In this document: positions 8,756 to 32,562 of the stretch, one piece after another
How positions within the stretch are numbered: position 1 is the first letter of the stretch
How the letters are laid out: the number at the start of each line of letters is the position of its first letter
Position numbers and translations under genes: made by a program
Origin: Clostridiaceae bacterium
Lineage (GTDB): Bacteria; Bacillota; Clostridia; Saccharofermentanales; DTU023
Length of the DNA stretch: 32,681 nt
Assembly: GCA_012838355.1 (NCBI GenBank)
Contig: DUPJ01000136.1
Span: 1 to 32,681 of the forward strand
Reading direction: 5' to 3'
The notes under the pieces: generated by a model
The model's database searches: none
Seen by the model: the letters and a program-made list of their open reading frames with translations, nothing else
Told to the model about the DNA's origin: nothing

Positions 8756-8801
8756 TAAGAAGCGGTTCATTACGCCTCTGAAAACTGAAAATCAGACACT
8801 T

Positions 8802-8831: not shown

Positions 8832-8857
8832 ATTGTTCATCAAGAAAGGAACCTATC

Positions 8858-13498: not shown

Positions 13499-13518
13499 AC
13501 AATGGTTCTTTACGTCCC

Positions 13519-13546: not shown

Positions 13547-13576
13547 ATTCATTGATAAAAAAGAAAGAAGGAATCT

Positions 13577-13792: not shown

Positions 13793-13798
13793 ACGGCC

Positions 13799-14668
13799 AT
13801 GTTTGGCATACTCGACCGCATTGAAGAAGCCATCAGGAGTTTTTTCATCGGGCTGATTGAAGGCAACCTGACGACGATGTTCACGGATGTGAATGAGAAA
13901 ACGTCCACGATCGCCGAGCAGGTCGGACAGACGCCCGAGGGCTGGAACCGCAGTATCTTTCAGATGATTCGCTCGTTATCCGAAACGGTCATCATCCCGA
14001 TTGCCGGGATGATCATAACCTTCGTTCTTTGTTACGAGCTGATCACCATGATCACGGAGAAGAACAACCTGCACCAATCGGACTCGTTCGATTTCTTCAA
14101 GTATTTCTTCAAGATGTGGGTGGCGGTTTATCTCGTCTCCCATACCTTCGACATCACCATGGCGATCTTTGATGTGGCGCAGTACGTCGTGAGCGCAAGT
14201 ACCAGCGTCATCAGCGGCACCACATCCATTGACATCGACAGCGCACTGGCCTCCATGATCGCGGGGCTGCAGGCAATGGGAATCCCGGAGCTTGCAGCCC
14301 TCGCCATCGAGACGATCATCATCGGCAATGCCATGAAACTGCTCTCCATCCTGATCACCGTCATTCTTTATGGCCGCATGATCGAAATCTATCTCACCTG
14401 CTCGATTGCTCCCATTCCTTTTGCCACGCTGACCAACCGGGAGTGGGGGCAAATCGGCAACAACTACATCCGCGGACTTTTAGCCCTCGCCTTCCAAGGC
14501 TTTTTCATGATGGTCTGCGTCGCGATTTACGCGCTGCTGGTTCAATCCATCATCGTCTCGGACAACATTCAAAACAGTGTGTTGCAGATTGCCGGTTATA
14601 CGGTACTGCTTTGCTTCACGCTCTTTAAAACGGGAAGCCTGACCAAATCCATTTTCAACGCCCATTAA
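13799..14668 (+). CDS. virB6: VirB6/TrbL-like channel protein (CD1112 family)
   Basis: A 289-residue polytopic membrane protein that would form the inner-membrane channel of the type IV secretion machinery. At least five hydrophobic segments are visible: near 62-82 (TVIIPIAGMIITFVLCYELI), 103-125, 165-200 (LAALAIETIIIGNAMKLLSILITVILY), 225-250 (LLALAFQGFFMMVCVAIYALLV) and 263-280. The PIPFATLTNREWGQIGNNYIRGLLALAFQGF segment is the conserved VirB6/TrbL-like part. The N-terminal 45 residues are amphipathic. Only six bases separate it from the Maff2 gene, and prgI starts 28 bases after it, so the three are surely one transcript. Confidence 0.9.
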   Translation: MFGILDRIEEAIRSFFIGLIEGNLTTMFTDVNEKTSTIAEQVGQTPEGWNRSIFQMIRSLSETVIIPIAGMIITFVLCYELITMITEKNNLHQSDSFDFFKYFFKMWVAVYLVSHTFDITMAIFDVAQYVVSASTSVISGTTSIDIDSALASMIAGLQAMGIPELAALAIETIIIGNAMKLLSILITVILYGRMIEIYLTCSIAPIPFATLTNREWGQIGNNYIRGLLALAFQGFFMMVCVAIYALLVQSIIVSDNIQNSVLQIAGYTVLLCFTLFKTGSLTKSIFNAH

Positions 14669-14696
14669 CCACCACCCGATAAGAAGGAGGAATCCT

Positions 14697-15125
14697 ATGG
14701 CCTATGTCACCGTGCCAAAAGATTTAAACAAGGTGAAGACGAAAGTCGCCTTGAATCTGACCAAACGCCAGCTCATCTGCTTTTCTGCAGCGGGGCTCGT
14801 CGGTGTGCCGGTCTATCTCTTGACAAGATCCACGCTGGGAAACGATGTAGCGGCCACGCTCATGGTCATGATCATGCTGCCGCTCTTTGCCTTCGCGCTG
14901 TACGAAAAAGACGGCATGACGCTGGAAAAGATCATTGGAAACATGGTGCGCAGCCGCTTTTTCTATCCGAAACGGCGTCCCTACGAGACAGAGAACGTCT
15001 ACCGCATTATCCAGAACGAAATCAACGAACGAAAGGAGGCCGCCCGCCATGCCAAAAAGAAAAGACGCGCCCAAGCGGCGTTTGCCCGTCAGGCCGGACG
15101 CGCCAACCAAACCGAAAACCATTAA
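14697..15125 (+). CDS. prgI: PrgI-family transfer protein
   Basis: A 142-residue PrgI-family protein (VirB3-like position in Gram-positive conjugation systems). The N-terminus AYVTVPKDLNKVKTKVALNLTKRQLICF is the family signature, followed by two hydrophobic segments (about 27-46 and 52-70, the second being VAATLMVMIMLPLFAFALY), then a basic cytoplasmic tail rich in Lys, Arg and Ala. In most type IV systems this small protein partners the VirB4 ATPase; here virB4 starts inside its 3' end with a 77-bp overlap in another frame, which suggests coupled translation. GAAGGAGG lies ideally before the ATG. Confidence 0.92.
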   Translation: MAYVTVPKDLNKVKTKVALNLTKRQLICFSAAGLVGVPVYLLTRSTLGNDVAATLMVMIMLPLFAFALYEKDGMTLEKIIGNMVRSRFFYPKRRPYETENVYRIIQNEINERKEAARHAKKKRRAQAAFARQAGRANQTENH

Positions 15126-17454: not shown

Positions 17455-17471
17455 CACATCCGGTTTTCTGC
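17439..17471 (+). promoter_or_regulatory. hairpin over the virB4 stop codon
   Basis: GCAG-C-AAAACCG (17439-17450) pairs with CGGTTTTCTGC (17461-17471), an 11-bp stem with one bulged base. Its loop holds the virB4 TGA stop codon. No real U run follows; the next gene's GGAGG starts 9 bases later. It may be a weak terminator or a translation-linked switch. Confidence 0.45.
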
Positions 17472-17493
17472 CAGGTAAAGGAGGTGAATCACC

Positions 17494-19503
17494 ATGCCTG
17501 ACATTTCCCAAAACAGTGATCGATTCAACGCAGCCTATCATATATGTCAGCTTGACCATAAAAACGGATCTGCATCCAGTAAGAAGACGGAGCCGCCACT
17601 TTCAGGCAATCCGCATAAAAGGAAGCAGGCGCTAAGCAGCGTTGAAGGAAAACAGAGGTCTTTTGAGCCTGCTAAACCCAGCGAAGCCAGCACGAACTTG
17701 CTTCAAGAGCGGGTCGCCACAGACGATTCAATGGAAGGGTTCTCCAACCAGCTTCGTTCACGCTCGTTTCGCGTTGAACAGGTTAGTCACGATAAGGTCC
17801 ATTCTCCTGTTCGACGGGAGGAACGAGGATCGATGTCGGCGGAGAGGAAATCTTTTCCAGATCCGTCCATGCAGAGAAATCGCAGGGCGGTCTATCGAGC
17901 GGCGAAAGAGAAAAGCGACGCCACTTCGAAAGGTACTTTCAACACTTCAGCAACGGAGCGTTCAGTGCCAAAAACAGGCGCGAAGCAGCAGGCGAATGCA
18001 ACAGCCAGTCCCGCTCTGCATTTTGAAAAAGAAAGCGCTCGGATGTTTCAATCGGCGCTTCGCTTCGATGAACCGCTCAACGTAAAAAAGAGCGGAATGC
18101 TCGCACGAGGAGTGGGGGCCCTCGGCACGACCGCTCTTGATGGGATGAGATCGAACGTTAAAGCAGGGACGGATGATAATGCCGGGCTACAAGCACTTGG
18201 AAGTGCGGATCGGTCAATACGGACGGGTACGTCCATGATTCGCTCGCAGCGTGAAAAAGGCGCGCTGCGAAGCGTGAAGAAAACAGAACGGCTGCGAACG
18301 AAAACACTTCAGCGTCAAGCCGATTACATCGGAAAGCGACAGGTAAGCCAACCTGGCGGCACCAATCCTATCAGCCGCGCGTTTCAGAAAAAAAGAATCA
18401 AACGCCAGTACGTGCAGGCGGCCAAAACCTTCCAGCGAACAGAACAGGTTCGAAGAAAAGGTCAGTGGACGAAAAGGACTGTAGGTAAAGGTGTACGCAC
18501 CGTTAAACAAGTCGTTAGGAAAAAAGGAGCGGTGTATCTGGCCATGGCTCTGGTGGCGTTTCTTTTCATTGGATCACTTTTTTCCTTTTTGTTTTCCGCC
18601 ACCACCATCATCGGCGGGAGCGCCGTTGGCGGACTCGCCAGCTCACCGGCCGGTGGAAAGATCTTCATCAGTCCGTTTGACTTTGACTGGACGCCGACCG
18701 TATCGAGTCGGTTTGGTTTTCGGACACACCCGGTGAGCGGCGAAACGGACACATTTCACACCGGTCTTGATCTGGCAGTGCCGGAAGGAACGCCGATTCG
18801 GGCGGTGCAGTCCGGCGTCGTCTTGCAGGCCGTGAACGGGACGGATGGCTATGGCCGGTACGTGCTGATTCAGCATGATAACGGCTATCAGACGCTGTAT
18901 GCCCATTGCCATGAACTGCTGGTCACATCCGGTCAAAAAGTATTGATGGGCGACGTAATCGCCAGGGTCGGCACAACGGGCATGTCGACCGGCAATCATC
19001 TGCATATTGAAGTACGACGAGACGGTGAGTTTCTTGACCCCTACCCGTTATTGGCCACCGGGAATGAGCTCAATACCGGATCTCCGGCGATGGTGGATGT
19101 GGCCGTCTCACAGATCGGAAACGTCGGCGGGAAACCGTATTGGACGTGGTACGGCTTCTCCCAGCGCATCGAATGGTGTGCGGTGTTCGTCTCCTGGTGT
19201 GCCGCCCAAAACGGCTATATCGATGCCGGCGCGGTCCCTAAATTTGCCGGCTGCACGCAAGGTTCCAACTGGTTTAAGGAGCGAGGACTTTGGATGCCGG
19301 CAGGCTACCTGCCGTTGCCGGGTGAACTCATCTTCTTCGACTGGGATGGAGACGGCATACCCGATCACGTGGGTATTGTCGAATCCTGTGATGGTTCGAC
19401 CGTCTACACCGTGGAAGGTAACACCTCCGACAGCTGCATGAGACGCGCATACGGTGTGAACAGCAAAAGTATTTACGGCTACGGGACCCCCGTTTATCCC
19501 TGA
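17494..19503 (+). CDS. membrane-anchored M23 + CHAP peptidoglycan hydrolase (CD1108 family)
   Basis: A 669-residue bifunctional wall hydrolase that would open the peptidoglycan for the conjugation channel, the VirB1-like function. The first 340 residues are basic, polar and probably disordered and cytoplasmic. One membrane helix follows (about 348-368, VYLAMALVAFLFIGSLFSFLF). Outside lie an M23 endopeptidase domain (about 390-520) with the zinc ligands HTGLD (His422, Asp426) and HLH (His502, His504), and a C-terminal CHAP amidase/endopeptidase domain (about 535-669) with EWCAVF (Cys562) and DHVG (His625). Both active sites look intact. Start ATG 17494 has AAAGGAGG 10 bases upstream. CD1108-type proteins are found right after VirB4 in clostridial ICEs. 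The unusually long basic N-terminus could touch DNA or VirB4; that is a guess. Confidence 0.92.
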   Translation: MPDISQNSDRFNAAYHICQLDHKNGSASSKKTEPPLSGNPHKRKQALSSVEGKQRSFEPAKPSEASTNLLQERVATDDSMEGFSNQLRSRSFRVEQVSHDKVHSPVRREERGSMSAERKSFPDPSMQRNRRAVYRAAKEKSDATSKGTFNTSATERSVPKTGAKQQANATASPALHFEKESARMFQSALRFDEPLNVKKSGMLARGVGALGTTALDGMRSNVKAGTDDNAGLQALGSADRSIRTGTSMIRSQREKGALRSVKKTERLRTKTLQRQADYIGKRQVSQPGGTNPISRAFQKKRIKRQYVQAAKTFQRTEQVRRKGQWTKRTVGKGVRTVKQVVRKKGAVYLAMALVAFLFIGSLFSFLFSATTIIGGSAVGGLASSPAGGKIFISPFDFDWTPTVSSRFGFRTHPVSGETDTFHTGLDLAVPEGTPIRAVQSGVVLQAVNGTDGYGRYVLIQHDNGYQTLYAHCHELLVTSGQKVLMGDVIARVGTTGMSTGNHLHIEVRRDGEFLDPYPLLATGNELNTGSPAMVDVAVSQIGNVGGKPYWTWYGFSQRIEWCAVFVSWCAAQNGYIDAGAVPKFAGCTQGSNWFKERGLWMPAGYLPLPGELIFFDWDGDGIPDHVGIVESCDGSTVYTVEGNTSDSCMRRAYGVNSKSIYGYGTPVYP

Positions 19504-19521
19504 CGGTCAAGGAGAAATCGG

Positions 19522-19758
19522 ATGAGTTTAAAACGAACAAGACAAGACAAAAAGAAAGTGCAAGACCGCATTGAAGCGCTGAAAGAAAAGCTGAGGCTAC
19601 TGAATGAGAAAGAGACTGAACTTGAGAACACAGAAATCGTCTCGGCCGTTCGCGCTTTGAAACTGGACCCGTTGGCGTTAAACCGCTTTTTGGATCGCCT
19701 GAAAAGAGGCGAACTACCGCCAACACCAAATAAAGAAATAGAGGAACAGGACCTATGA
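19522..19758 (+). CDS. DUF4315-family small protein
   Basis: A 78-residue, highly charged protein: a coiled-coil-like N-terminal half (KKKVQDRIEALKEKLRLLNEKETELEN) and a C-terminal helix LDPLALNRFLDRLKRGELPP. It matches DUF4315, which always sits between the M23/CHAP hydrolase and the DUF4366 protein in this class of ICE. Its function is unknown; a structural or regulatory role in transfer is possible. AAGGAG precedes the ATG, and the stop overlaps the next start (ATGA). Confidence 0.85.
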   Translation: MSLKRTRQDKKKVQDRIEALKEKLRLLNEKETELENTEIVSAVRALKLDPLALNRFLDRLKRGELPPTPNKEIEEQDL

Positions 19759-21317
19759 AAAAAAGACTATTGACTGTGCTGTTAATCCTAAGCCTGCTCG
19801 TTCCGCTCACGGGTAGAGCCCTGTTTAATGAGCCCGTGCATGCGAACGAATCGATAGCCGACGCCAGCGTTGAACCATCAACAACAGAAGAAGAGATACA
19901 GTCATCAAGTGAAGCGTCACACGAAGAATTATCACCGGTCGTTAATGCTGCGGGTGAAGCAAAATCGGCAACGCTAGAGGGTGGGGTTCAAGCGGAAACG
20001 GCATCAGTGGATGAGACTTTGCCCGACACGCCTACTGCACCGCTACTGGAACTGGAATTACTGCCTGTGTACGAGACGAACTGGACGAATCAACCGCTGG
20101 AAATCAGCGTGTTACTCGTCGACAAAAAAACCGGCCAGGAAGTTGGCATCAATAAACTGGAAGGGCGTGTGGCCGCCACCGATGACTGGACTGATATAAC
20201 CGGGCAGCAAAGCTGGACGATGAGAGAAAGCGGCACCTTGTACCTGCGCGGCGAAGCAAGTGACGGACAGATCCTCACGCATGAATTGGCCGTTTCGAAC
20301 ATCGACACCGAAATACCGATGGTCCACGCGAGCATTGACCAAGCCCAGGTAGCCATCCGCGCCACCGATGATCGATCCGGCGTGGCAATAATCTATGTCA
20401 ATGACTACCCGTTTGCCGATGTGAAAAACGGCAATCTGAACCTGCTCCTGCAAGACTACGACACGTACTTTGAAACGCTCTTCATTCAGGCGGTCGATCT
20501 GGCCGGGAACCGCTCATTGACCTACCATTTGAAGAACCCCTATTATCGAAATCCCGTCACGGCCGTGCCGACCGTTTCGCCCACCTCTCCCCCAAGCAGA
20601 CCAGCAGACATCATAACGCCTTCACCTGTCACTGAGGCAAAAGGAACGCTGACAAACGAAACGACCACTGGCCAGGGCACGTTCACGGAGAACACCGTGA
20701 TCCCGGTAAAAACATCGCCGTATCAAGCGGGTGTACAGACCCCGGAGCCGGTAACGACGCCGGCACCAACCGAAGAAACCGTGATTCCGGATCCGACCAG
20801 GCCGCCTAGAACCGACACGGATCAGGAGCCAACGATCACCGGGAGTGCGGATCAGGTGGCGAAGGAGTTCTTATCAGTCAAGACAAAAAGTGGCAAGATC
20901 TTTTATCTCATCATTGATCGAACCAGAACGACTGACAATGTCTATCTCGTCACCGAAGTCGACGAAGCGGATCTGATGCACTTCACAAACAGCGCTGGTG
21001 CAGCGGGTAACATACCGTTGCCGCAACCGGAAGAGACAGTACAGGTCACGCTGCCAAAACCGAGTGAAGCGCCGCCTGTGCCCTTAGACCCCATCGAAAA
21101 GCCGGATAAGAAAGGAAATTTTTCTCCGGGTACGATCATCACGATCCTTCTCGTTCTCGGTATAGCAGCAGGCGGTGTGTACTACCTCAAGGTGCTAAAA
21201 CCCAAACAGCAATATCCAAGCGAAGCGGACTTTTTCGATGAGGAGTACATGGACGACGAGCCCGTTTCTCATGAGGCATTCTCCCGCTCGGGTGACGACG
21301 ACAGCGACAACAGGTGA
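19755..21317 (+). CDS. DUF4366 surface protein (CD1107 family)
   Basis: A 520-residue exported membrane protein. It has a signal peptide (about 1-32), a Ser/Thr/Glu-rich stretch to about 100, a beta-rich middle with Ig-like character (about 100-260, including DRSGVAIIYVNDYPFADV and DLAGNRSLTYHLKNPYY), a Pro/Thr-rich linker (about 265-370) and the DUF4366 block FLSVKTKSGKIFYLIIDRTRTTDNVYLVTEVDEADLMHF. A membrane helix (about 458-478, TIITILLVLGIAAGGVYYL) leaves an acidic cytoplasmic tail ending EEYMDDEPVS. It is a standard component of Tn1549/CTn transfer operons, with no known biochemical function; surface scaffold or contact roles are guesses. It starts by a 4-bp overlap with the DUF4315 gene. 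Confidence 0.88.
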   Translation: MKKRLLTVLLILSLLVPLTGRALFNEPVHANESIADASVEPSTTEEEIQSSSEASHEELSPVVNAAGEAKSATLEGGVQAETASVDETLPDTPTAPLLELELLPVYETNWTNQPLEISVLLVDKKTGQEVGINKLEGRVAATDDWTDITGQQSWTMRESGTLYLRGEASDGQILTHELAVSNIDTEIPMVHASIDQAQVAIRATDDRSGVAIIYVNDYPFADVKNGNLNLLLQDYDTYFETLFIQAVDLAGNRSLTYHLKNPYYRNPVTAVPTVSPTSPPSRPADIITPSPVTEAKGTLTNETTTGQGTFTENTVIPVKTSPYQAGVQTPEPVTTPAPTEETVIPDPTRPPRTDTDQEPTITGSADQVAKEFLSVKTKSGKIFYLIIDRTRTTDNVYLVTEVDEADLMHFTNSAGAAGNIPLPQPEETVQVTLPKPSEAPPVPLDPIEKPDKKGNFSPGTIITILLVLGIAAGGVYYLKVLKPKQQYPSEADFFDEEYMDDEPVSHEAFSRSGDDDSDNR

Positions 21318-21322
21318 CGCAC

Positions 21323-21352
21323 AAAAGCGGTCAGGAAACTGGCCGCTTTTTT
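21323..21352 (+). terminator. terminator-like hairpin between the DUF4366 gene and topB
   Basis: AAAAGCGGTCAG (21323-21334) pairs with CTGGCCGCTTTT (21339-21350) around a GAAA tetraloop with one G-U pair; six T residues (21347-21352) close it. This is a strong intrinsic terminator by appearance, sitting 6 bases after one stop codon and 15 bases before the start of the next gene of the same operon. Confidence 0.8.
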
Positions 21353-21367
21353 AGAAAGGATGGTTTC

Positions 21368-23446
21368 GTGATTCTAATCGTGGCAGAAAAACCAAGTGTG
21401 GCGCTGACTCTGGCGCGAGTGCTTGGCGCAACAAAGAAAAAGGACGGTTTCTACGAAGGAGAAGGACTTTTAGTCAGCTGGTGTATCGGACACCTTGTCT
21501 CGTTCATGGACGCCGACGAGTACGATGCATGTTACCAAACATGGCGCTACGACGATCTTCCCATCGTGCCTTCGCCCTGGAAACTTACCGTCTCCAAGGG
21601 TAAGGAAGTACAGTATCGGGTGCTGGAATCCTTACTGCACCGCATCGATGTCAATGAAGTCTGCTGTGCGACCGATGCCGGCCGAGAGGGTGAGCTGATC
21701 TTTCGTTTTGTCTACGAAAAAGCGGGCGGAAAGCAGCCGGTCACGCGCCTGTGGCTTCGCTCCATGGAGGAAAAAGCCATTCAAAAAGGCTTTTCATCAC
21801 GTCAACCGGCGCGGGAATACGACAACCTCTATCACGCCGCGCTGTGCCGGGCCAAGGCGGACTGGCTGGTCGGTATCAACGCCAGCCGTTTGTTTTCGAT
21901 TCTCTACCGCACCACGCTGCCGGTTGGCAGGGTGCAATCACCGACACTGGCACTCGTGGTCGCACGCGAAGCGTCCATAGAAAATTTTAAGAGAACGCCG
22001 TACTTTCGGCTACGGCTTCGGCTGGACGGATTTGAGGCGCTCAGTTCGCGTTTTGCAGCAAGAAGCGAGGCAGAGGCATGCATGCGTTTTCTTCAGGACA
22101 AAGAAGTTGTCGTTCAGGACATCAACACGGAAGATAAACGAGTGCAACCGCCCCTCTTATACGATCTCACCACCTTGCAACGGGACGCCAATCGCCTTTT
22201 CGGATTCACGGCCAGCGAGACGCTGGAACTTGCCCAACGGTTATACGAGAAAAAACTTATTACGTATCCACGGACAGACAGCAACTACCTGACAACAGAT
22301 ATGGCCGACACCGTAAATGACACGATTCACACACTTCAGCACGCGCTGCACATGACGCTTCCGTACCAGCCGAAGACCGAGCGGCTCCTTCGTAACGCGA
22401 AGGTACGTGACCATCACGCCTTGATACCAGCCCTGAGCGTGACGGAAAGCGTCTTTCAGGACCTTCCCGACAACGAGCAGACGATCATTGAATGTATAGC
22501 GCGGCGCTTACTCCAGAGCACAGGAACGGCGCATGGCTATCAACTGAGAACCGTGACGCTCACGAGCAGAGATCAAGTCTTTACGGCCAAGGGAAAAGTG
22601 ATTGTGGATTTGGGCTGGAAGGCACTGGAAAAGGAAAATGACAGCGACCAGGGCGAAGCGGATGAAGAAAAGGTTCAATCATTGCCGACGCTACAAGTTG
22701 GCCAACACCTGTTCATCGAATCATTAGCCGTCACGGCTCACGAAACGACACCGCCCAAACCATACACGGACGATACGCTGCTGGCTGCGATGGAAAAAGC
22801 CGGTAAGGACGAATTGAATGAGGATCTTGAACCGGAGCGACAGGGGTTAGGGACGCCGGCGACTCGTGCAGGCATTATCGAAAAACTGATCGCCAGCAAA
22901 CTCCTTGTCCGTGAGAAAAGGACGCTACGCCCCACCCCGAAAGGCACCAATCTCATAGCGATTTTGCCAGATGCCCTCAAGTCGCCGTCGCTGACAGCCG
23001 AATGGGAAAACCGCCTGAACCGGATGGCGAGCGGAAATGAATCAGCCGATGCGTTTTTGACTGATATCGAAACGTCTCTACAAACGCTGGTCAGCACGTA
23101 TCAAGCAATAAAAACAAGTGAAACAAATCGATTCAACCCGCCCAAAGAAGTCGTCGGTCAATGTCCGCGCTGCAGCATGACGATTCATGAGAGTAAGAAA
23201 AACTTTTACTGTTCAAACCGAGGCTGTGATTTTGTCATGTGGAAAAACGATCTCTTCTTCACGCAGAAAAAAGCAACGCTCACCAAAGACGTGGCGGCGA
23301 CGCTTCTAGCCGGAGAAACCGTGTGGTTCAAGAGTCTCCATTCAGCCAAAACGAAAAAGACGTATCAAGGCGGGATTTCGATGAACGATACCGGTGAAAA
23401 GCATGTCCGCTACCAACTACATGTCACGAAAGAAGCAAACGAATAA
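21368..23446 (+). CDS. topB: type IA DNA topoisomerase III (conjugation-associated)
   Basis: A 692-residue type IA topoisomerase that cuts and passes single strands, probably to resolve DNA during ICE transfer or replication. The TOPRIM start ILIVAEKPSVA is at the very N-terminus, ATDAGREGELIFR carries the metal-binding acidic residues, and the catalytic tyrosine is Tyr300 in LITYPRTDS. The C-terminus has a C4 zinc finger, CPRCSMTIHESKKNFYCSNRGC, and a following 50-residue tail. I chose GTG 21368 with AAAGGA seven bases upstream; the longer frame from 21314 would read through the terminator hairpin. topB is a regular passenger of this ICE type. Confidence 0.93.
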   Translation: MILIVAEKPSVALTLARVLGATKKKDGFYEGEGLLVSWCIGHLVSFMDADEYDACYQTWRYDDLPIVPSPWKLTVSKGKEVQYRVLESLLHRIDVNEVCCATDAGREGELIFRFVYEKAGGKQPVTRLWLRSMEEKAIQKGFSSRQPAREYDNLYHAALCRAKADWLVGINASRLFSILYRTTLPVGRVQSPTLALVVAREASIENFKRTPYFRLRLRLDGFEALSSRFAARSEAEACMRFLQDKEVVVQDINTEDKRVQPPLLYDLTTLQRDANRLFGFTASETLELAQRLYEKKLITYPRTDSNYLTTDMADTVNDTIHTLQHALHMTLPYQPKTERLLRNAKVRDHHALIPALSVTESVFQDLPDNEQTIIECIARRLLQSTGTAHGYQLRTVTLTSRDQVFTAKGKVIVDLGWKALEKENDSDQGEADEEKVQSLPTLQVGQHLFIESLAVTAHETTPPKPYTDDTLLAAMEKAGKDELNEDLEPERQGLGTPATRAGIIEKLIASKLLVREKRTLRPTPKGTNLIAILPDALKSPSLTAEWENRLNRMASGNESADAFLTDIETSLQTLVSTYQAIKTSETNRFNPPKEVVGQCPRCSMTIHESKKNFYCSNRGCDFVMWKNDLFFTQKKATLTKDVAATLLAGETVWFKSLHSAKTKKTYQGGISMNDTGEKHVRYQLHVTKEANE

Positions 23447-23459
23447 CAGGAGGAAACCC

Positions 23460-23630
23460 ATGGATATTAAAGAAACAATAAAAAACCTTATCGGTGTCGA
23501 GGTGACGACCGATGACCTGAAAGCCATTCGTGAGAACCCCGAGCAATACACATCATCGAAAGAAAACGCGGCCAGGCTCGAAGAGCTGGTCATGCTGCTT
23601 CGCTTAACGGAAGAAACGGAGGATCAGTAA
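23460..23630 (+). CDS. 56-aa conserved-looking hypothetical protein
   Basis: A 56-residue, acidic, mostly helical protein starting MDIKETIKNLIGVEVTTDDL. I do not recognise the family. The ATG at 23460 has AGGAGG eight bases upstream, and the stop codon is adjacent to the next gene's ATG, so it is translated as part of the operon. No membrane segment or motif is visible. Candidates are a small DNA-processing or regulatory partner of TopB or of the ArdC-like protein. Confidence 0.75.
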   Translation: MDIKETIKNLIGVEVTTDDLKAIRENPEQYTSSKENAARLEELVMLLRLTEETEDQ

Positions 23631-26522
23631 ATGACACCCTTAGATGAAGTTCGCTATATTCAAGCCTACGCCCGTATCATGGGCGTGAAGGAAGAGGTAG
23701 TCGTCGAGTATGCACAAAAGAAAGGCATGGCGGCACTCGTCGATAACGCCACACAGTTATTAGTTACACCAACACAAAAAGAAAAGCACCGGGCGTTTCT
23801 CGATCTCTACCGGATGAGCAGCGCCATCACCCATGACAATCCGATCTTGAATTCACCTGAAGCCGTGGCCAGCTTCATGCGCTCGGTGATGGATCAGATT
23901 CATGATAAAGAAGCGTTCATCGTGGCATTCTTGAACACGAGAAATCGTGTTATCGACTATGACGAGGTAGCGCTTGGCTCCATCAACGGAGCCGTCGTAC
24001 ACCCGCGCGAAGTATTTCGCAAAGCCATTATCAATAAGGCCAATGCCGTCGTGATCAGCCATAACCATCCGACTGGTGACGTCACACCGAGCCAGCAGGA
24101 CCATCTGGCAACCGAACGCCTGAAGCAAGTGGGCGATATTGTCGGGATACCGGTGATGGATCACGTGATCGTGAATGGACTGAACAGCCATGATTTCTTT
24201 TCCTTCCGAGCCAATGGCGTGTTGGAAGAACAAGCGCTTTACCACGTAACATCGGCAATTGCCGAGGAAAAATCGGTTTATCAAGGCAAAAAGAACGAAC
24301 TTAAGGAGATTACCGATAAGCTCGAAGAAGGTATTCGCGAACTGTTTGAAAGCGGCAGGTATGAAAACTACCTGAAAGTCATGTCACGGTTTCACAACTA
24401 CAGTTCCAATAATATTTGCCTGATCGCCATGCAAAAGCCGGATGCGTCGTTTTTAGCCGGGTATCACGCCTGGCAAAAGAAATTCCAGCGTCAGGTCAGC
24501 AAAGGGGAAAAAGGGATCCGTATCATTGCGCCAGCGCCGGTTAAAAAGAAAGTGGAAAAAGAAAAGCTTGATCCGACTACGAAGAAGCCAATCCTGGACA
24601 AAGACGGCAAACCGCTTCTGGAGGAAGCGACCGTCACGATTCCGCAGTTCAAAGTCGTACCCGTATTTGATATCTCACAAACCGAAGGCAAAGCGTTGCC
24701 GTCGCTGGTGGAGCAGCTGCAAGGCAGTGTGCAAGATTTTGGGCTGATCATTGAAGCGCTGAAAGACGTTTCACCAGTTCCGCTTGCCTTCGAAGCGATG
24801 GAAAAGAGTAAGGACGGTTATTTTCACCTGAAGGATAAGCGTATTGCGATTCGTGAAGGTATGAGCGAAAGCCAGACGGTCGCTGCAGCCATCCACGAGA
24901 TTGCTCACGCCAAGCTTCATGGCATAGACCTGGCGGGACCCGATAAAGTGACGTCAGAAGACCGAAAGGATCAGCGAACAAGAGAAGTCGAAGCAGAAAG
25001 CATCGCCTACACGGTTTGTCAGTACTATGGAATTGAAACCGACGCCAACAGCTTTGGCTATGTGGCCGGTTGGAGCAGTGACAAAGAGCTGAAAGAATTG
25101 AAGGCCTCCCTTGAAACAATTCGTAAAACGGCAGGAGAACTCATCAACGACATCGATGCCAAAGTCTTGGAGTTAAAACAGCAGCGAGGCACGCTGGTAC
25201 CAGAGATGTCGACCCGACAAGAGGCAGCAGAAGCGCTGGCCGTAAAAATCGATGCGCTGGCGGAAGATGTTGATCCGTATGGCCGCAGCGACGCGCTGGA
25301 AGTAGGTGCTGATCCTATTGCCGAGACAAAAGCGCTCATTCTTTCCGGTGATGAAGGCATCCGTACGTGGTTACAAGAAGTAGTCACGGAAGGCACTGAT
25401 GAACAAAAGGAAACGGCAAAAAGCTACCTGAATGCATTGGATAAAATTCACCAGCAGGACGGGTTTTTCCATTTGTCAAACGGCGAGTTTTTATCCCTTC
25501 ACAGTCATGAGCAGGAAACCAGTTTTGTGTTCTACGACGCCTTTCTGACAAGACAGAAAGAAGGTCTCATTTCTCAGCCAGGCTTGATGCTGGATGTTGC
25601 CAAAGACCACTCATTACGTGAATATGGCCGAGATAATGTGCAGGCAAAAGAGATCAGTACAGACGATTTCAAGCACATCCAAGCGCTTGGAGATGCGGAG
25701 CCGACCGTCACCTTCCTTTGGAGTGAACATGAAGACATAAAAGATGGGATGAAGATGCCTCTATCGGAGGCCAACCGCTTGATAGAGGAACTGGATAAAA
25801 AGCAGCAAATCGATCGGGAGAAGCCGGAACATGAAGGGTTATGGTACTACAAGACAGGTTTTCAGATCGATTACGTCAAAAACGGAGAATACGCAACCTA
25901 CACCGGGCGGCAGGATATTGGTGACGGAGAGGGGGCACTCATTCATCACATTCAGCAGCACACCAACTATTATCTGACAGACGCCAGCTGGCAGAAGTAT
26001 CTGTCTGGAAAAGGGGAATCCGAACTGGCCAAAGCCAACCAGGAGCTTCGTTCCATGCGGGATGAGGTCATTCCCTACTTTAATGCCCATTGCTCACTGA
26101 CCGATCTGGAGCAAAGAACGACAGGGTATATTGCCGAAATAATGGCAGTACCGGCTACCGAGCGCACGGATCAAGAGGATGGAACATTAAACTACTATGC
26201 CGATGTCCAGGAATACGTGCGCCTCAGCCGTCAACAGATGAATCTCACCACTGACCCGGAAATGCCGGAGTTTCCGCAGATGCAACACTACATCTCGGAT
26301 CCTTCAGAGAAAGCAAAGGAAGTGGATCTCGATCAAGATGGCACCCCTTCGCGGATCGATATCGATGATGGCGACAGCCGGATGCAGCTCGTCCATCACG
26401 TGGAAAAGCGAGATGGAGCAGAGAACAAGCCATCAATAAGAGATCGACTTCGGGCGTCCAAAGAGCCGAGCGATAATAATCTCATTGAACAGAACTTAAA
26501 GATTGGAGAACGATTGAGATGA
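23631..26522 (+). CDS. RadC/JAB + ArdC (LtrC-like) large polyvalent protein
   Basis: A 963-residue multi-domain protein. Residues about 60-210 form a RadC-type JAB/MPN domain with a full metal motif SHNHPTGDVTPSQQD (about 142-156). Residues about 222-310 form an ArdC N-terminal (ssDNA-binding) domain with NYLKVMSRFHNYSSNNICLIAMQKPDASFLAGYHAWQKKFQRQVSKGEKGIRI. A zincin-type metallopeptidase follows, with HEIAH at 422-426. The C-terminal half (about 520-963) is acidic and repeats parts seen in LtrC-like and DUF4316-type proteins, ending with DLDQDGTPSRIDIDDGDSR. ArdC proteins protect incoming DNA against restriction; RadC-like domains are of unknown role. Together they suggest single-stranded DNA protection in the recipient, perhaps after transfer of the protein itself. 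It shares a 4-bp overlap with the next gene. Confidence 0.88.
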   Translation: MTPLDEVRYIQAYARIMGVKEEVVVEYAQKKGMAALVDNATQLLVTPTQKEKHRAFLDLYRMSSAITHDNPILNSPEAVASFMRSVMDQIHDKEAFIVAFLNTRNRVIDYDEVALGSINGAVVHPREVFRKAIINKANAVVISHNHPTGDVTPSQQDHLATERLKQVGDIVGIPVMDHVIVNGLNSHDFFSFRANGVLEEQALYHVTSAIAEEKSVYQGKKNELKEITDKLEEGIRELFESGRYENYLKVMSRFHNYSSNNICLIAMQKPDASFLAGYHAWQKKFQRQVSKGEKGIRIIAPAPVKKKVEKEKLDPTTKKPILDKDGKPLLEEATVTIPQFKVVPVFDISQTEGKALPSLVEQLQGSVQDFGLIIEALKDVSPVPLAFEAMEKSKDGYFHLKDKRIAIREGMSESQTVAAAIHEIAHAKLHGIDLAGPDKVTSEDRKDQRTREVEAESIAYTVCQYYGIETDANSFGYVAGWSSDKELKELKASLETIRKTAGELINDIDAKVLELKQQRGTLVPEMSTRQEAAEALAVKIDALAEDVDPYGRSDALEVGADPIAETKALILSGDEGIRTWLQEVVTEGTDEQKETAKSYLNALDKIHQQDGFFHLSNGEFLSLHSHEQETSFVFYDAFLTRQKEGLISQPGLMLDVAKDHSLREYGRDNVQAKEISTDDFKHIQALGDAEPTVTFLWSEHEDIKDGMKMPLSEANRLIEELDKKQQIDREKPEHEGLWYYKTGFQIDYVKNGEYATYTGRQDIGDGEGALIHHIQQHTNYYLTDASWQKYLSGKGESELAKANQELRSMRDEVIPYFNAHCSLTDLEQRTTGYIAEIMAVPATERTDQEDGTLNYYADVQEYVRLSRQQMNLTTDPEMPEFPQMQHYISDPSEKAKEVDLDQDGTPSRIDIDDGDSRMQLVHHVEKRDGAENKPSIRDRLRASKEPSDNNLIEQNLKIGERLR

Positions 26523-26740
26523 AAAACCTGACGATCGAAGAAGAAAATGTTCTTGCCATGTTGCCTGATAAAGTCAATAAAAAGGGCATGTTGGATGCGC
26601 TTGAGGTGATGAAGGAGCACACAGAGGATATTATTTTGAAAACAATCGTCGAGCGATGTGTAAAAACGATCTCTCAAATGATGGAAGATGATGTTACAGC
26701 GCTGGTATTCACTTGCGCAGATAAAATGTTAGAATACTAG
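26519..26740 (+). CDS. 73-aa hypothetical protein ending the operon
   Basis: A 73-residue, acidic, helical protein (MKNLTIEEENVLAML, then KVNKKGMLDALEVMKEHTEDIILKTIVERCVKTISQMMEDD). I do not recognise it. It overlaps the ArdC-like gene by 4 bp (ATGA) and is followed after 10 bases by a strong terminator, so it is the last gene of the transfer operon here. No membrane helix or metal motif is seen apart from two lone cysteines. Confidence 0.7.
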   Translation: MKNLTIEEENVLAMLPDKVNKKGMLDALEVMKEHTEDIILKTIVERCVKTISQMMEDDVTALVFTCADKMLEY

Positions 26741-26951: not shown

Positions 26952-27473
26952 TTAATTTTCTTTCATAGTAGGATCGAATGAATCAGGCAATAGGTTTAAA
27001 AGTACCTCATCATCGAATTTAATGAAAACGACGTCAATCGCATCAGCCGCCAAGTCTGCCTGGCACATAACATAAACCTGGCGTTCTAGTGTATCAAGGG
27101 TTTTGCCTGTCCAGTATTCTACCCCGCTCACGACATCACGTGAAAACTCCCAATCAATAGAATCGTTAGACATAGATACAGTAAGATTGTTTTTATTGAG
27201 TTCATCAATCCCGACATTAATGATGTAAAGTTTGTATTCTGTAGGAAAAGCTGACTCTTCTGCGAGCGTGTCTTCATCAGTTGGCCTTGCAGAACTCGTA
27301 CCAGGGTAACTCATGTCAGCAGGTGGCTTTCTCGGTGCTTGAGGAGTGTCATATCCCAAAGGATTTGGTGCAGGTTCACGTGTCATCATAAATATAAATG
27401 CGCCTAGAATAAACACCAATAAAACAACGGTAACTATGTTTCTGCGTGACCTGAATTTTCCGTTACTCGCCAT
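26952..27473 (-). CDS. single-TM membrane protein of the ABC cluster
   Basis: A 173-residue protein with one N-terminal membrane helix (about 13-30, IVTVVLLVFILGAFIFMM), after a basic MASNGKFRSRRN, which puts the rest outside the cell. A Pro-rich stretch (about 33-65) leads to a small acidic domain with YKLYIINVGIDELN and VFIKFDDEVLLNLLPDSF. I do not recognise the family. It is the last gene of the minus-strand cluster, 32 bases after the large permease gene, so it is likely an accessory or immunity-type subunit of that transporter. Base composition is AT-rich like its neighbours and unlike the transfer genes. Confidence 0.75.
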   Translation of the reverse strand: MASNGKFRSRRNIVTVVLLVFILGAFIFMMTREPAPNPLGYDTPQAPRKPPADMSYPGTSSARPTDEDTLAEESAFPTEYKLYIINVGIDELNKNNLTVSMSNDSIDWEFSRDVVSGVEYWTGKTLDTLERQVYVMCQADLAADAIDVVFIKFDDEVLLNLLPDSFDPTMKEN

Positions 27474-27505
27474 ATTTCAAACCGCCTCTTTCCCAAAAAA
27501 GTTGT

Positions 27506-29818
27506 TTATTGACTATTTCGTAATACTCGCAGCAAGTCTCTTATGGTATCCCCTCGAAAAGGTGTCGTCAATAATTTTTCGATTGATTGTCTGCCCATTG
27601 CCTCACCTTGGGCAGCAAGAACATCAAGGACGAGAACTCGCAAATCAAAATCGAGTAGATGCTGCGCACTTATGCGAAATGGCTCAAATGATCGGGATTC
27701 TTCATCATGACCAGCAGCTGTTGACCGGATATAACTCACTGCCTCTTCTATCTGGCCGCGGCTCTCGTCTGTTTCGTTGATTACAGCCCTGAGCAATTGC
27801 TGGTCACGTTCAAATCTCTCCTGGGGTGAAAGATTAGGTATCTCGTCATAGAGAGAAAGCAAAAATTCGGTTTCGGATAGTGTATCGTTGTCATCAATAA
27901 AATAGTCTCGACAGGCATCCAGTACATTGGCTTTTCCTTTTTCCTCAAACAAATCCGCGAGAAATGAATAGGATGACTCTGTTGTGATGATAGGATCTTC
28001 ATCAGCGTAGTTCTTACCGGTCGGATCCCAGCCACTGGCTATGGCTCGCATTTCAATCTCACCAGGATGCTTCTCTTCATCCTCTATTAAGCTGAACAGA
28101 TCTTGCTTATAGTATGGCAGTTTCTGGAGTGCATAGAACTCAAACAATTCAGGTAGTGACTGAACGATGAGATGATCCGAATATTCTGACATGCGTTCTG
28201 CCATGGAACTAGCACGAAGGGGATCGACAACAAAAATGGTTTCTATATCTGGAGTGATAATATTCCTATTAACTCCTTGTTCGATCAAGCTTTGCCAATT
28301 GGAACTTAAAGCGTTATCTTTCCATTCTATGGAGGGCAGTATAAGGCGTATATCGCCCACTTCAGCTTCGCGGAAAAAACCGCTCACAAGTGATAGCCCG
28401 TTACTCCTACCGGAAAAACGATTATAACCGGTTTTTGGTAGATTGCAGAAAAACGCTAGATTTGACTTTATATTGACGTTGTATTGTACGGGCGACGATT
28501 CGTATAAAGGAATAAATTCATGTTTGCTGTCATACACTGGATGAAACCCAGCACGCGGATAATAGCAAAAGAAGCCTGGCAAATACGTTCCTTGAACGGT
28601 CGCAAAGAATCTATTCGAAACACCGGCGTATTCAATGATCAACGTATCAAGCATCAGCCGTTCAGGATTTAAAATGGATAGATAATCACTCTCCTGCTCA
28701 AACGAAAGTTCAATGTTATCAGTAGTCGTTACACGATTCACTTTGTAATTGTGATACAGCGTGAATCGATATGCTGAAAGTGCCGATGGCTCAACAGAAA
28801 TGGAAGCAACAGCATGCACCATTTGGCCCACTCGAAGATTCAAGTCTACGGAGGTGATAACGAAATCGGGCAAGGACTCTTTAGCCGAATGATTCTGATA
28901 ATAGAGACTATCGGCCATCACGGTGTCACGATGACCACGCGCAAAACTAACTATTGACGAAGGCTGCAAAAAGATGACGATCGAGACGACTGTCAGAATT
29001 AAGGAAATGAATCTAAGCCAGGATGTGCGACGATTTCGTTTTCTTACAAGAAAAGTCAGTAGCACGGTGGTAAAGCCAAAGAACCATATGGCAGCCAATG
29101 CGATACGATAGGGTAGTAAAGAAAAGCCGAATACGGAATTTGGTTGTGCATCTAGAGAAGGTGGTAACAAATTAAACACATCAAAGAGAGGCATGATGAT
29201 TTCACTGATACCAAATGAGACGCTGTCAATCGTATATGATAGCCAGCGTGAAAAAGGTGAAATGAGAAAGGTTATGCCGATTAATAACAGGTATGCTCGC
29301 ATCCGATTCTTTATAAGTACAGCCGTAATTCCCATGATAATGGCAATACAAGGGAGCACAAAGTTGTTAAATAAAATGCTGAGAACTACATGCGCCCGAA
29401 TGGGCAAATCATTGACTGCTAAATGATTTAGGTAATGAATATTAATGCCGAGCTGAATCGTTACGACAGCGAGTAGAAGGATCACATTCGAAATGAAAAT
29501 AGCAAAGAATATTTTTAGCCGGCCACGCCTTAACGCCGAAACCGGTTCGAGTAGATGACTGGTGACAACTTTCGCAGAGGCTTCATACGAAAAAAACAGA
29601 AAAAAGGTAAATAGCAGTAGGCTAACGCCTAAAGTACGATTTGTCAGGCTTAATTGTTGGGGTATGCCGCCTACAAGTGGTAATCTCAGCTCTTCAAGTA
29701 TTAGTGAATAGAATTTAAGTATAGTAAAGCTTGTCCAGATAACGAGGAGAATGTAGCTTGCCAGCATTTCTCTGTTCTTTAGTGTACGTTGAAGTTGAAA
29801 ACGAATCGTTTTTACCAT
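27506..29818 (-). CDS. ABC permease with large extracytoplasmic domain (M1-peptidase-like, no active site)
   Basis: A 770-residue protein. About seven hydrophobic segments lie in the first 290 residues (near 17-37, 62-80, 104-125, 145-168, 173-192, 238-258 and 268-288), followed by about 480 soluble residues that should lie outside the membrane. That part begins with a beta-rich block (PDFVITSVDLNLRVGQMVHAVASISV, then YLPGFFCYYPRAGFHPVYD and NGLSLVSGFF) that recalls the N-terminal domain of M1 aminopeptidases fused to ABC-2 permeases in other bacteria, and ends in helices. I find no HExxH anywhere, so if it is M1-like it is catalytically dead. The resemblance is by eye only. It lies in one operon with an ABC ATPase and a second permease, which argues that it is the receptor-like half of that transporter. 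Confidence 0.8.
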   Translation of the reverse strand: MVKTIRFQLQRTLKNREMLASYILLVIWTSFTILKFYSLILEELRLPLVGGIPQQLSLTNRTLGVSLLLFTFFLFFSYEASAKVVTSHLLEPVSALRRGRLKIFFAIFISNVILLLAVVTIQLGINIHYLNHLAVNDLPIRAHVVLSILFNNFVLPCIAIIMGITAVLIKNRMRAYLLLIGITFLISPFSRWLSYTIDSVSFGISEIIMPLFDVFNLLPPSLDAQPNSVFGFSLLPYRIALAAIWFFGFTTVLLTFLVRKRNRRTSWLRFISLILTVVSIVIFLQPSSIVSFARGHRDTVMADSLYYQNHSAKESLPDFVITSVDLNLRVGQMVHAVASISVEPSALSAYRFTLYHNYKVNRVTTTDNIELSFEQESDYLSILNPERLMLDTLIIEYAGVSNRFFATVQGTYLPGFFCYYPRAGFHPVYDSKHEFIPLYESSPVQYNVNIKSNLAFFCNLPKTGYNRFSGRSNGLSLVSGFFREAEVGDIRLILPSIEWKDNALSSNWQSLIEQGVNRNIITPDIETIFVVDPLRASSMAERMSEYSDHLIVQSLPELFEFYALQKLPYYKQDLFSLIEDEEKHPGEIEMRAIASGWDPTGKNYADEDPIITTESSYSFLADLFEEKGKANVLDACRDYFIDDNDTLSETEFLLSLYDEIPNLSPQERFERDQQLLRAVINETDESRGQIEEAVSYIRSTAAGHDEESRSFEPFRISAQHLLDFDLRVLVLDVLAAQGEAMGRQSIEKLLTTPFRGDTIRDLLRVLRNSQ

Positions 29819-29843
29819 GTTTACCTCTGGAAAGACAACGAGG

Positions 29844-30503
29844 TCAATTACTCAACCGGTTAGGCAAGAAGCGCCGCATGATGGCCAAAAACAATCCGGC
29901 GAATAAAAATCTCAAGTACGGAAATAATTCGCCGAGCTGATGAAGCTCCTGATGCTGACCATAGAAAGGAAAGCGTTGGTAGTTCATAACAATACTTACA
30001 AGAGAGTAAATCAATAAAACCAGCATGGTAATCGTGATGGATCCGGTTAACTGTGTCAAAATTACCATAAGTCCAAAGAAGAATACGCAGATCAGTAAAA
30101 TACGAATAAACTCCAAAAGAAATCGTCCGAAGATGAGGTGTGCCACGAAATAGAAGACAAAGATAGCAAGAACTGCGAACACAAAAAGTATGGTTGCGTC
30201 GATGTACCCGGGACGTATCTTCAACACAAACAATAATTCCCGACCGTCGCCCTCAGTGCGTTCACGAAGGGAAAGTAAAGACCACCACACTGAGAAAAAG
30301 GGGATGAGCAAAAACGCGATCTGATTGAAATATGTACGAAAAGTTATATAGGGGTCATTATATGAGTAACGCCAGAATAAGATCAAAATGATAGGCATGA
30401 TGAGATAAAAGATAAAGAACGGTGCTCTAAATGCCGAACCTAAACTCTTAGTAATCAACAAGAAGCGTTCGCGAGTTAATTTCAAATAGACTTTATTGTG
30501 CAT
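29844..30503 (-). CDS. ABC-2-type permease subunit
   Basis: A 219-residue polytopic membrane protein with about six hydrophobic segments (near 27-47, FFIFYLIMPIILILFWRY; 62-78; 102-125, DATILFVFAVLAIFVFYFVAHLI; 132-152; 156-178; 198-212). It overlaps the ATPase gene by 22 bp and is followed 25 bases later by the large permease. The layout ATPase, small permease, larger permease is that of ABC exporters for peptides such as LanFEG immunity pumps. I see no substrate motif. Confidence 0.82.
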   Translation of the reverse strand: MHNKVYLKLTRERFLLITKSLGSAFRAPFFIFYLIMPIILILFWRYSYNDPYITFRTYFNQIAFLLIPFFSVWWSLLSLRERTEGDGRELLFVLKIRPGYIDATILFVFAVLAIFVFYFVAHLIFGRFLLEFIRILLICVFFFGLMVILTQLTGSITITMLVLLIYSLVSIVMNYQRFPFYGQHQELHQLGELFPYLRFLFAGLFLAIMRRFLPNRLSN

Positions 30504-31327
30504 AGATATCCGTCTTCTATTTCCGGTTCACACGATGAGATCGCTTGCGGCACGTTAGAGAGAACACGATATCGGACCTGGCCACTGCGCGCATATTTCT
30601 TGAATATATAGGGTTCGCCCATCAGATTAGAGAGCTCAGATTCAGCAACATCAAAAACTTTGTGCTTCGCGATTTGTCGAACATCATCGTTTGTACCGTT
30701 TGCCTTAATTTGTTGATCGTGCAGAATCAAAATACGGTCGCATGTTGCATCAACGTCTTCGACGATGTGCGTAGAAATAACGACAATACGATCGCCCTTT
30801 ATATCAGCTATTAGATTCTTGAATCGTAATCGTTCCTCCGGGTCGAGCCCGGCCGTAGGTTCATCAAATAAAAGAATAGGCGGGTCACCGATTAACGCCT
30901 GTGCTATTCCCAGACGCCGAACCATGCCTCCGGACAAACTGCCTACACGGCTTTTTTCGCGGTCAATTAAATTGACAAGTGCTAACACACGCTGTATTTC
31001 TGAGCGTGCGACATGTTTATCTATACCTTTCAGATTTGCAAAAAGCTCAAGCATAGCATGAACCGACAATTCTGGATAAAGTCCAAAACGCTGTGGTAGG
31101 TACCCGATCTTGTCTAGGTAGTCATTGACATCACCTGAAGAGGTTCCATCAATAAAAACAGCATTTTCCCCTTCTTTATATAAATGTGTCAAACAACGTA
31201 GTAGCGTCGTTTTTCCAGCACCATTTGATCCAAGCAGACCATAAACATGTGGTTCAAATGTGACCGACAGCTCATTGAGAACGATTCTTTTACCAAAGAC
31301 TTTTGTCAGGTTTCTTACCTCAAACAT
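30482..31327 (-). CDS. ABC transporter ATP-binding protein
   Basis: A 281-residue stand-alone ATPase of the CcmA/DrrA type. Walker A is GSNGAGKTT (about 34-42), Q-loop region GYLPQRFGLYP, signature SLSGGMVRRLGIAQAL, Walker B ILLFDEPTAGLDPEE and switch STHIVEDVDATCDR. All catalytic residues are intact. After about residue 215 a 65-residue tail (DVAESELSNLMGEPYIFKKY...) is typical for this class. It energises the two permeases encoded next to it. Start ATG at 31327 has only a distant GAGGT upstream, so translation may be modest compared with the secreted protein before it. Confidence 0.93.
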   Translation of the reverse strand: MFEVRNLTKVFGKRIVLNELSVTFEPHVYGLLGSNGAGKTTLLRCLTHLYKEGENAVFIDGTSSGDVNDYLDKIGYLPQRFGLYPELSVHAMLELFANLKGIDKHVARSEIQRVLALVNLIDREKSRVGSLSGGMVRRLGIAQALIGDPPILLFDEPTAGLDPEERLRFKNLIADIKGDRIVVISTHIVEDVDATCDRILILHDQQIKANGTNDDVRQIAKHKVFDVAESELSNLMGEPYIFKKYARSGQVRYRVLSNVPQAISSCEPEIEDGYLCTIKSI

Positions 31328-31360
31328 CTTTTATTAAGTTACCTCACGTGTTCAAGTAAT

Positions 31361-31397
31361 ATGGATATGAGTTAGCATGTTACCAACTCATATCCAT
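31361..31397 (-). promoter_or_regulatory. 13-bp-stem hairpin between the secreted-protein gene and the ATPase gene
   Basis: ATGGATATGAGTT (31361-31373) pairs perfectly with AACTCATATCCAT (31385-31397) around an 11-base loop. It lies 30 bases after the secreted-protein stop codon and 34 bases before the ATPase start. No T run follows on the minus strand, so it may stabilise the upstream message or cause partial termination. Such a structure would give more secreted protein than transporter, as is common in bacteriocin operons. Confidence 0.75.
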
Positions 31398-31427
31398 CCT
31401 ATCAAATCGGTAGAGAATTAAAGAGAG

Positions 31428-31823
31428 CTAATAAGAATACCACAACCAACCATAACCAGTTGCGCCGACACCATCATTAGCTGATCCTAATTGTAATAGC
31501 CAATTTCGTTCGTTCAACAAATAACTTGTTCTGTAATTTTTTATGCTTCCTCCTATCTGGACAAAAACATCTGTGTCATAGTCATGCCACCATGATCCAT
31601 TGTAGTAGTACTTAGCGCATGCCCAAAGTTGCTGGCTTCCTCCATAGCTTGTCGCATCGAACATTTTGTAATAGCCATAGCCTTGACCAGAGACTCTGCG
31701 CTCTGCACCCAGAGGTAAATAGACGGTTGTGTACGGTGATTCATATGCCCATACAAATGACGCTGCCAATACTACAAGTAGTAAAACGCAAATGGCTCCT
31801 GCCAAAATCCTTTTCCTTCTCAT
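31428..31823 (-). CDS. small secreted aromatic-rich protein, possible bacteriocin or signal protein
   Basis: A 131-residue precursor. I chose ATG 31823 (MRRKRILAG) with GGAGG five bases upstream; an in-frame GTG twelve bases earlier is less likely. A Sec-type signal peptide is clear: basic start, hydrophobic core (about 7-25, LAGAICVLLLVVLAASFVW) and a likely cleavage after Ala26 (VWA/YES). The mature part, about 105 residues, is very rich in Tyr, Trp and Gly, has one Cys and appears beta-rich (VYLPLGAERRVSGQGYGYYKMF, WWHDYDTDVFVQIGG, GATGYGWLWYSY). I do not recognise the family. Lactococcin-972-type bacteriocins share the style (Sec-secreted, Tyr/Trp/Gly-rich, next to a multi-spanning membrane protein and an ATPase), but no diagnostic motif matches. 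Toxin, signal or transporter ligand are all open. Confidence 0.8.
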   Translation of the reverse strand: MRRKRILAGAICVLLLVVLAASFVWAYESPYTTVYLPLGAERRVSGQGYGYYKMFDATSYGGSQQLWACAKYYYNGSWWHDYDTDVFVQIGGSIKNYRTSYLLNERNWLLQLGSANDGVGATGYGWLWYSY

Positions 31824-32340: not shown

Positions 32341-32562
32341 TTACTTCTGTTTACAGGTCTGCTGCATGTAGGGGTGCCAGGGCATGAGCATGTCCATGAT
32401 GGTTGAGTCCTTCAGATAATTGCTGCCGGGGATATGCTGGAGCAGCGATTGCAGATAAAGGAAAGGGTCAAGTCCGTTGGCCTTGGCGGTTTCAATCAAT
32501 GAATAAACACAGGCACTGGCTTTGGCGCCGTTCGGTGAGCCGGAGAATAACCAGTTTTTCCT
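32341..32562 (-). pseudogene. IS66-family transposase, C-terminal fragment
   Basis: Translated on the minus strand, about 73 residues read KRKNWLFSGSPNGAKASA, then CVYSLIETAKANGLDPFLYLQSLLQHIPG and end MPWHPYMQQTCKQK before a TAA. The RKNWLFSGSxxGAxASA and YSLIETAKANGLDPxxYL segments are the conserved end of IS66 transposases (TnpC). The similarity stops just upstream, where the frame meets a stop codon inside a palindrome (32560-32587), so about the first 85% of the gene is absent here. It is a decayed insertion sequence and marks a past rearrangement at the right edge. Confidence 0.85.

Follow-up and report, generated by a model that had tools for sequence, protein, structure and literature searches.

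What kind of system is formed by a gene for a small secreted protein and the four genes downstream of it on contig DUPJ01000136.1 of the Clostridiaceae bacterium assembly GCA_012838355.1, where components of an ATP-binding cassette (ABC) transporter are encoded directly next to it? The window analysed comprises the whole contig (32,681 nucleotides, nt), in which five open reading frames (ORFs) on the minus strand, here referred to as P1 to P5, span positions 26952-31823. The first-pass annotation of this DNA had described these genes as a cluster of a secreted protein and an ABC transporter that possibly forms an undescribed bacteriocin or peptide-sensing system, with its AT-richness suggesting separate acquisition. 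All five ORFs were found to be present, with P2 and P3 overlapping by 22 nt and with short gaps between P3 and P4 (25 nt) and P4 and P5 (32 nt), while the 100-nt gap between P1 and P2 contains a hairpin. Here, the cluster is read, with slightly more confidence than doubt, as a secreted bacteriocin-like effector together with a self-immunity exporter, both located as cargo on an integrative conjugative element (ICE). That the system itself is an undescribed one is well supported, as four of its five proteins match no family, as the synteny extends across phyla and as the AT-rich genes point to separate acquisition (GC is 42.0% in the cluster, 51.6% in the transfer genes and 53.1% in the left flank, and the second copy described below is AT-rich too).

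The proposed effector P1 (31428..31823, minus strand, 131 amino acids (aa), with a GGAGG ribosome site) starts with a putative Sec signal, which consists of RRKR, a hydrophobic core (residues 6-24) and the subsequent site VWA/YES, as assigned by hydropathy and inspection and not by SignalP. Mature P1 would comprise 105 aa (12.1 kDa, pI 5.6, one Cys), among them 16 Tyr, 6 Trp and 14 Gly residues, so that the earlier description as a Tyr/Trp/Gly-rich protein holds for P1 itself but does not extend to a constant trait of its relatives, the aromatic fraction of which varies between 0.08 and 0.23. The AlphaFold2 model of P1, for which 12 related sequences were used, reached a mean confidence (pLDDT) of 89.6 and revealed the signal helix followed by about ten strands; mature P1 is hence confidently predicted to be a small beta-sandwich. 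Searches of the PDB with the P1 and P4 sequences, as single sequence or as profile, identified no relative, and a direct search of plasmids for P1 relatives by sequence likewise identified none. Assignment of one relative to the JUQZ/BLB8 bacteriocin family was rejected, as the match is limited to the signal-peptide end (residues 4-43), and so was a bacteriocin of the geobacillin-26 type, those proteins being larger and helical and possessing a C-terminal transmembrane (TM) segment. Next to these, the P1 homologue of Mageeibacillus sp. UBA5442 (L006 6930-7342 / L037 7272-7616) was found to lack an in-frame signal peptide, which may result from a frameshift, decay or an assembly error.

The hairpin following P1 (31361..31397, minus strand) was confirmed as a 13-bp perfect inverted repeat with a folding z of -3.7, and it is devoid of a U-tract; by inference it would serve as an attenuator or RNA-stabiliser. 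An additional, imperfect inverted repeat (24 nt, 75%) was noticed at the start of P1 (31821-31844 / 31880-31903), one arm of which spans the P1 ribosome-binding site; it could form a leader-RNA fold that masks this site or it could be an operator.

Only P2 (30482..31327, minus strand) matches a family of Pfam or NCBIfam, and P1, P3, P4 and P5 match none in either library, which agrees with the earlier statement that the secreted and the accessory protein cannot be placed. P2 is a 281-aa ABC ATPase (ABC_tran, E 2.7e-27) with Walker A motif GSNGAGKTT, LSGG signature and Q-loop, and P3 (29844..30503, minus strand), a 219-aa ABC-2-like permease, possesses about 6 hydrophobic segments, as had been noted before, and is kept adjacent to P2 in relatives. 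P4 (27506..29818, minus strand) was correctly described as a 770-aa permease with a huge outer domain: 7-9 hydrophobic segments (about 7 TM) are followed, after the last TM helix, by a large extracellular domain that resembles M1 aminopeptidases. In the P4 model (pLDDT 78.8) the membrane-embedded region is distinct from the outer domain (residues about 300-660), and a Foldseek search, in which the outer domain was the matching portion, returned M1-fold entries exclusively among the top 50 (best E 3.1e-9), with weak global TM-scores owing to the TM part. HExxH and GxMEN are found in none of the 23 aligned P4-type proteins, in which FTLYHxYxV and LPGxFxYYP are the most conserved outer-domain motifs. 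As the M1 fold thus comes without HExxH in 23 of 23 relatives, the P4 ectodomain is predicted to be a pseudo-peptidase, and P4 acting as an active M1 peptidase was rejected. P5 (26952..27473, minus strand, 173 aa) consists of one N-terminal TM segment, in line with the single-TM accessory protein proposed before, and an outer domain; by position it is an immunity-like accessory, and at other loci the place after P3 that P5 holds here is taken by variable lipoproteins or one-TM proteins. A role in anti-phage defence was rejected, as PADLOC matched the ATPase domain only and none of the other four proteins, and no relative was identified in viral contigs or phage records.

A paralogous cluster was identified elsewhere in the source genome (L005, G000:C159, 8638-14018), which encodes P1 to P4 in the same order and with 71%, 77%, 70% and 61% identity respectively to the window copy, while the homologue of P5 (~32% identity) is located upstream and divergently transcribed. 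This copy adjoins an electron-transport gene set, read as rnf(-like) by sequence inspection, and its genes (38-46% GC) lie in a neighbourhood of 57-59% GC. This copy likewise has a hairpin separating P1 from P2 at the equivalent place (z -4.1), with the right-hand arm giving no alignment between both copies. The presence of two AT-rich copies in GC-richer surroundings points to horizontal spread of the cluster; in one other genome of the genus that was searched the system was not found. As the paralogous copy exists and P1, P4, P2 and P3 recur together in other genomes, the gene set is not a chance assembly. The neighbourhood survey that had been proposed thus recovered four of the five genes, P5 being limited to the two copies of the source genome.

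Relatives of P4 were gathered by profile and pattern searches and derive from many Clostridia, one Bacillus metagenome-assembled genome (MAG) and one Anaerosomatales (actinobacterial) MAG, as well as from plasmids of Geobacillus, Halobacillus, Priestia, Parageobacillus and Planococcus. In about 28 loci, which belong to Clostridia, plasmids of Bacilli and one actinobacterium, the P4-type permease has as its direct neighbour a gene for a Sec-signal protein of about 110-190 aa, most commonly in the order secreted protein, P4, ATPase, P3. A strict automated count located a secreted gene upstream of 15 of 47 P4-type genes vs 8 of 196 other genes (odds ratio 11, Fisher p=4e-7), whereby the count is deliberately conservative, not every locus is independent of the others and damage to the signal region is seen in some of the missed cases. 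A profile of P1 recruited relatives stepwise, including a new case from outside the seed (G330, E 3e-10) directly upstream of P4, and every strong match in 188 and 391 genomes adjoins P4. The small secreted proteins of Bacilli possess no demonstrable sequence homology to P1, hence several families of small secreted proteins appear to share one transporter chassis. Two further observations were made on plasmids of Bacilli. A ~250-aa protein near the P4-type transporter (L070, L071, L072, L104, L105) carries a weakly phospholipase A2-like C-terminus (CCxxHDxCY; Pfam below cut-off) and is possibly a second secreted effector, and Priestia filamentosa pBEH6 (L103) encodes two nearly identical small secreted genes (1769-2134 and 2317-2682, minus strand) divergent from the P4-type operon. 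Across 14 loci, distances of P1 and P4 were found to be correlated (Mantel r 0.68), also when the ATPase was controlled for (partial r 0.50, p 0.0005), while the correlation of P1 with the ATPase given P4 was nil; this co-divergence is suggestive only.

The suggested mechanism assumes that P1 is exported via Sec, as its signal indicates, and released as a beta-sandwich protein of roughly 12 kDa, which would then act as a bacteriocin against neighbouring cells, probably at the cell envelope. P2, P3 and P4 have the composition of a LanFEG-like ABC exporter, which may shield the producer. Protection of the producer is considered more likely than secretion of P1, as a Sec signal is present on P1 itself and no peptidase module is part of the transporter. 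The zinc-less M1-like ectodomain of P4 was suggested to be a substrate-binding scaffold that captures P1; the pump could then remove the captured protein from its target or from the membrane. P5 may be a membrane-anchored accessory, placed like immunity proteins of the LanI type, and the hairpin between P1 and P2 would let production of P1 exceed that of the pump.

Several findings weigh against this effector-and-immunity reading. Antibacterial activity of P1 and its relatives is a prediction. The fold search with P1 identified only distant beta-sandwiches in the PDB (best PirA, TM-score about 0.5), with no bacteriocin among the top 50 matches, and these matches indicate the class of the fold and not a function. 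Homologues of P5 occur beside only the two copies described above. The co-divergence of P1 and P4 becomes weaker when mature P1 alone and fewer loci are considered, is not significant given the ATPase in an 8-member set, and fails to separate the P4 ectodomain from its TM part. Finally, absence of the secreted gene beside homologous transporters had been named beforehand as a finding that would count against the system; this check came out in favour of the system at the about 28 loci where the gene is present, although about two dozen P4-type loci come without a visible small secreted gene. As a consequence, the P4-type transporter can have a role that is other or wider than that of a partner of secreted proteins.

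These loci are also the starting point for the assumption that the transporters of this family generally handle lipids or envelope stress and that the adjoining small secreted genes are unrelated passengers. This is judged very unlikely, considering that adjacency of secreted genes is enriched 11-fold, that homologous P1 adjoins P4 in several orders with correlated divergence and that both copies of the source genome retain the pair of P1 and P4. The existence of transporters without P1 also speaks for a reading in which P1 is a signal or a ligand for sensing that is secreted and then received or cleared by the pseudo-M1 ABC transporter, in the manner of Bce-like sensing or detoxification and with no killing involved. 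The conserved surface motif of the P4 ectodomain is consistent with such a receptor, and so are regulatory genes near the relatives: AgrB is encoded directly upstream of the small gene in two Lachnospiraceae loci (L040, L046), one of which (L046) also possesses a LytTR/GHKL pair, a LytTR regulator is found at L057, and XRE-TM proteins precede the small gene at L062 and L031. Regulators of this kind, to which genes for sigma-70, YvrJ and S8-peptidase near P4-type loci on plasmids of Bacilli are added, are typical of competition traits and as such support the effector-and-immunity reading. However, the window cluster itself is devoid of a histidine kinase or regulator, P1 with its about 105 folded and fast-diverging residues is unlike a short conserved signal, and the cluster shows neither of the Bce hallmarks, an FtsX permease and an ectodomain placed between TM7 and TM8, which renders a signalling function rather improbable.

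That P1 and P4 are tightly linked and diverge together would be explained as well if P2, P3 and P4 primarily exported or released P1, or a product bound to it, with P1 being a secreted carrier or envelope protein and not a toxin. The jelly-roll fold of P1 is compatible with carbohydrate binding, and the related bacteriocin ABC class TIGR03608, for which P2 scores below the cut-off, is named as export by NCBI. This idea is regarded as unlikely to a similar degree, given that P1 carries its own Sec signal, that no peptidase or accessory export module is encoded and that this transporter is also paired with small secreted proteins for which no homology to P1 is detectable. The reading of P1 as bacteriocin-like effector with a self-immunity exporter is retained, and the mobility and sporadic occurrence of the cluster support it: the window copy resides with an ICE, relatives reside on plasmids in Geobacillus, Priestia, Halobacillus and Parageobacillus, and the GC content drops in both copies of the source genome. 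As a wider and more tentative idea, which we consider possible but hold with more doubt than confidence, the system may constitute an undescribed class of protein bacteriocins in Bacillota and at least one actinobacterium, in which diverse Sec-exported beta-sandwiches are recognised by one conserved immunity exporter via its dead M1 domain; the ICE-borne pair would kill sibling cells from which the element is lost or missing, with the chromosomal paralogue conferring cross-immunity. The recurring, unannotated gene set was missed by current family libraries, and its members on plasmids of bacilli that are culturable and harmless, such as Geobacillus and Priestia, make the system testable. If true, a class of folded, unmodified bacteriocins would be added, the dead peptidase domain would represent a new mode of substrate recognition for an ABC immunity pump, and conjugative elements of anaerobes would, with these genes, carry a cargo that likely serves fitness or addiction.

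Concerning the setting within the contig, the ICE backbone (5322..26740, plus strand) encodes RepA_N, VirD4, a SpaA adhesin, TrbL, PrgI, VirB4, M23/CHAP, TopoIII, a RadC/ArdC polyvalent protein and TTRAP. It is directly preceded by a tRNA-Ala gene (4966..5042, plus strand), which is the likely integration target of the element, although a second att repeat was not found within the contig. As neither a relaxase nor an integrase was identified among the scanned window proteins, the element probably runs past the contig end, and P1 to P5 are likely internal cargo. Upstream of P1 and near the contig end, a remnant of an IS66 transposase C-terminus was identified (32341..32499, minus strand; PF13817, E 7e-12). 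Two large proteins were noticed in addition: a 1546-aa LPxTG protein with 11 SpaA domains inside the conjugative element (8858-13498), which is either an isopeptide fibre or a large adhesin of the cell surface, and a 963-aa polyvalent protein (23631-26522) that combines a RadC JAB domain, an ArdC N-terminal domain, an M78/DUF6782-like metallopeptidase and LPD25.

Among known systems, the lactococcin 972 family had been named as a parallel, and the gene layout bears this out: a small, beta-rich, Sec-exported protein of similar size is encoded next to an ABC ATPase and a polytopic protein of large size on a plasmid or mobile element (PMC4055356; PMC12345188), the Sec signal on the structural protein being shared by P1 as judged by hydropathy. 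The Lcn972 cluster includes the immunity genes orf2-orf3 and stabilises plasmids via post-segregational killing (PMC4055356), and mediterrocin is a Sec-exported gut bacteriocin encoded next to a DUF1430 protein and an ABC protein (PMC12345188). Homology, however, does not extend to the proteins themselves. PF09683 and the related NCBIfam model matched neither P1 nor 12 relatives, a PF09683 search of the source genome was negative, and alignment of P1 by hhalign with a real Lcn972-like protein of the same order gave a probability of 0.2%. P4 is a pseudo-M1 ABC-2-type permease instead of a DUF1430 protein, with no DUF1430 match for P4 or its relatives and no likeness of P4 to the large membrane protein beside the Lcn972-like gene, and a second permease is present. 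P2 reached 109 bits with TIGR03608, the model for lactococcin-972-associated ATPases (cut-off 254.85), and 2LGN, the reference for the Lcn972-type fold, lies outside the 50 best PDB matches of P1, though P1 was modelled as a beta-sandwich. Membership in this family was hence rejected on the PF09683, DUF1430 and TIGR03608 results. A different genome from this order was observed to carry a true lactococcin-972-like gene, with a large membrane protein encoded after it (L097, G049, 1-1725, minus strand).

The parallel to LanFEG, whose pumps expel lantibiotics (PMC5786555), stands with regard to subunit composition, as in LanFEG/CprABC one ATPase and two unlike permeases are encoded together without a peptidase domain, P5 is comparable to the membrane-anchored accessory LanI and expulsion of an antimicrobial is proposed. 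It does not stand for the 770-aa permease, the pseudo-M1 domain of which is outside the family: both LanFEG/CprABC permeases have ~6 TM and 24-29 kDa, which applies to P3 but not to P4 with its ~350-aa M1-like ectodomain (vs 6 TM and about 28 kDa). P2 scored 144.4 bits with TIGR03740, the model for LanFEG-type ATPases (cut-off 309.75), and the substrate would here be a folded protein without modifications, lanthipeptide genes being absent. With BceAB the cluster shares a permease that bears a large extracellular domain, for which recognition of the antimicrobial is proposed, but the Bce ectodomain sits between TM VII and VIII of a single permease (PMC5786555) and is not M1-like, whereas that of P4 is C-terminal and M1-folded in a system of two permeases; FtsX, the BceAB hallmark, matched neither P4 nor its relatives. 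From the M1 metallopeptidases, whose fold is predicted for its outer domain, P4 differs by the absence of HExxH/GxMEN and by the fusion to a permease. Taken together, these comparisons suggest a system that would work like Lcn972, mediterrocin and LanFEG but belongs to none of them.

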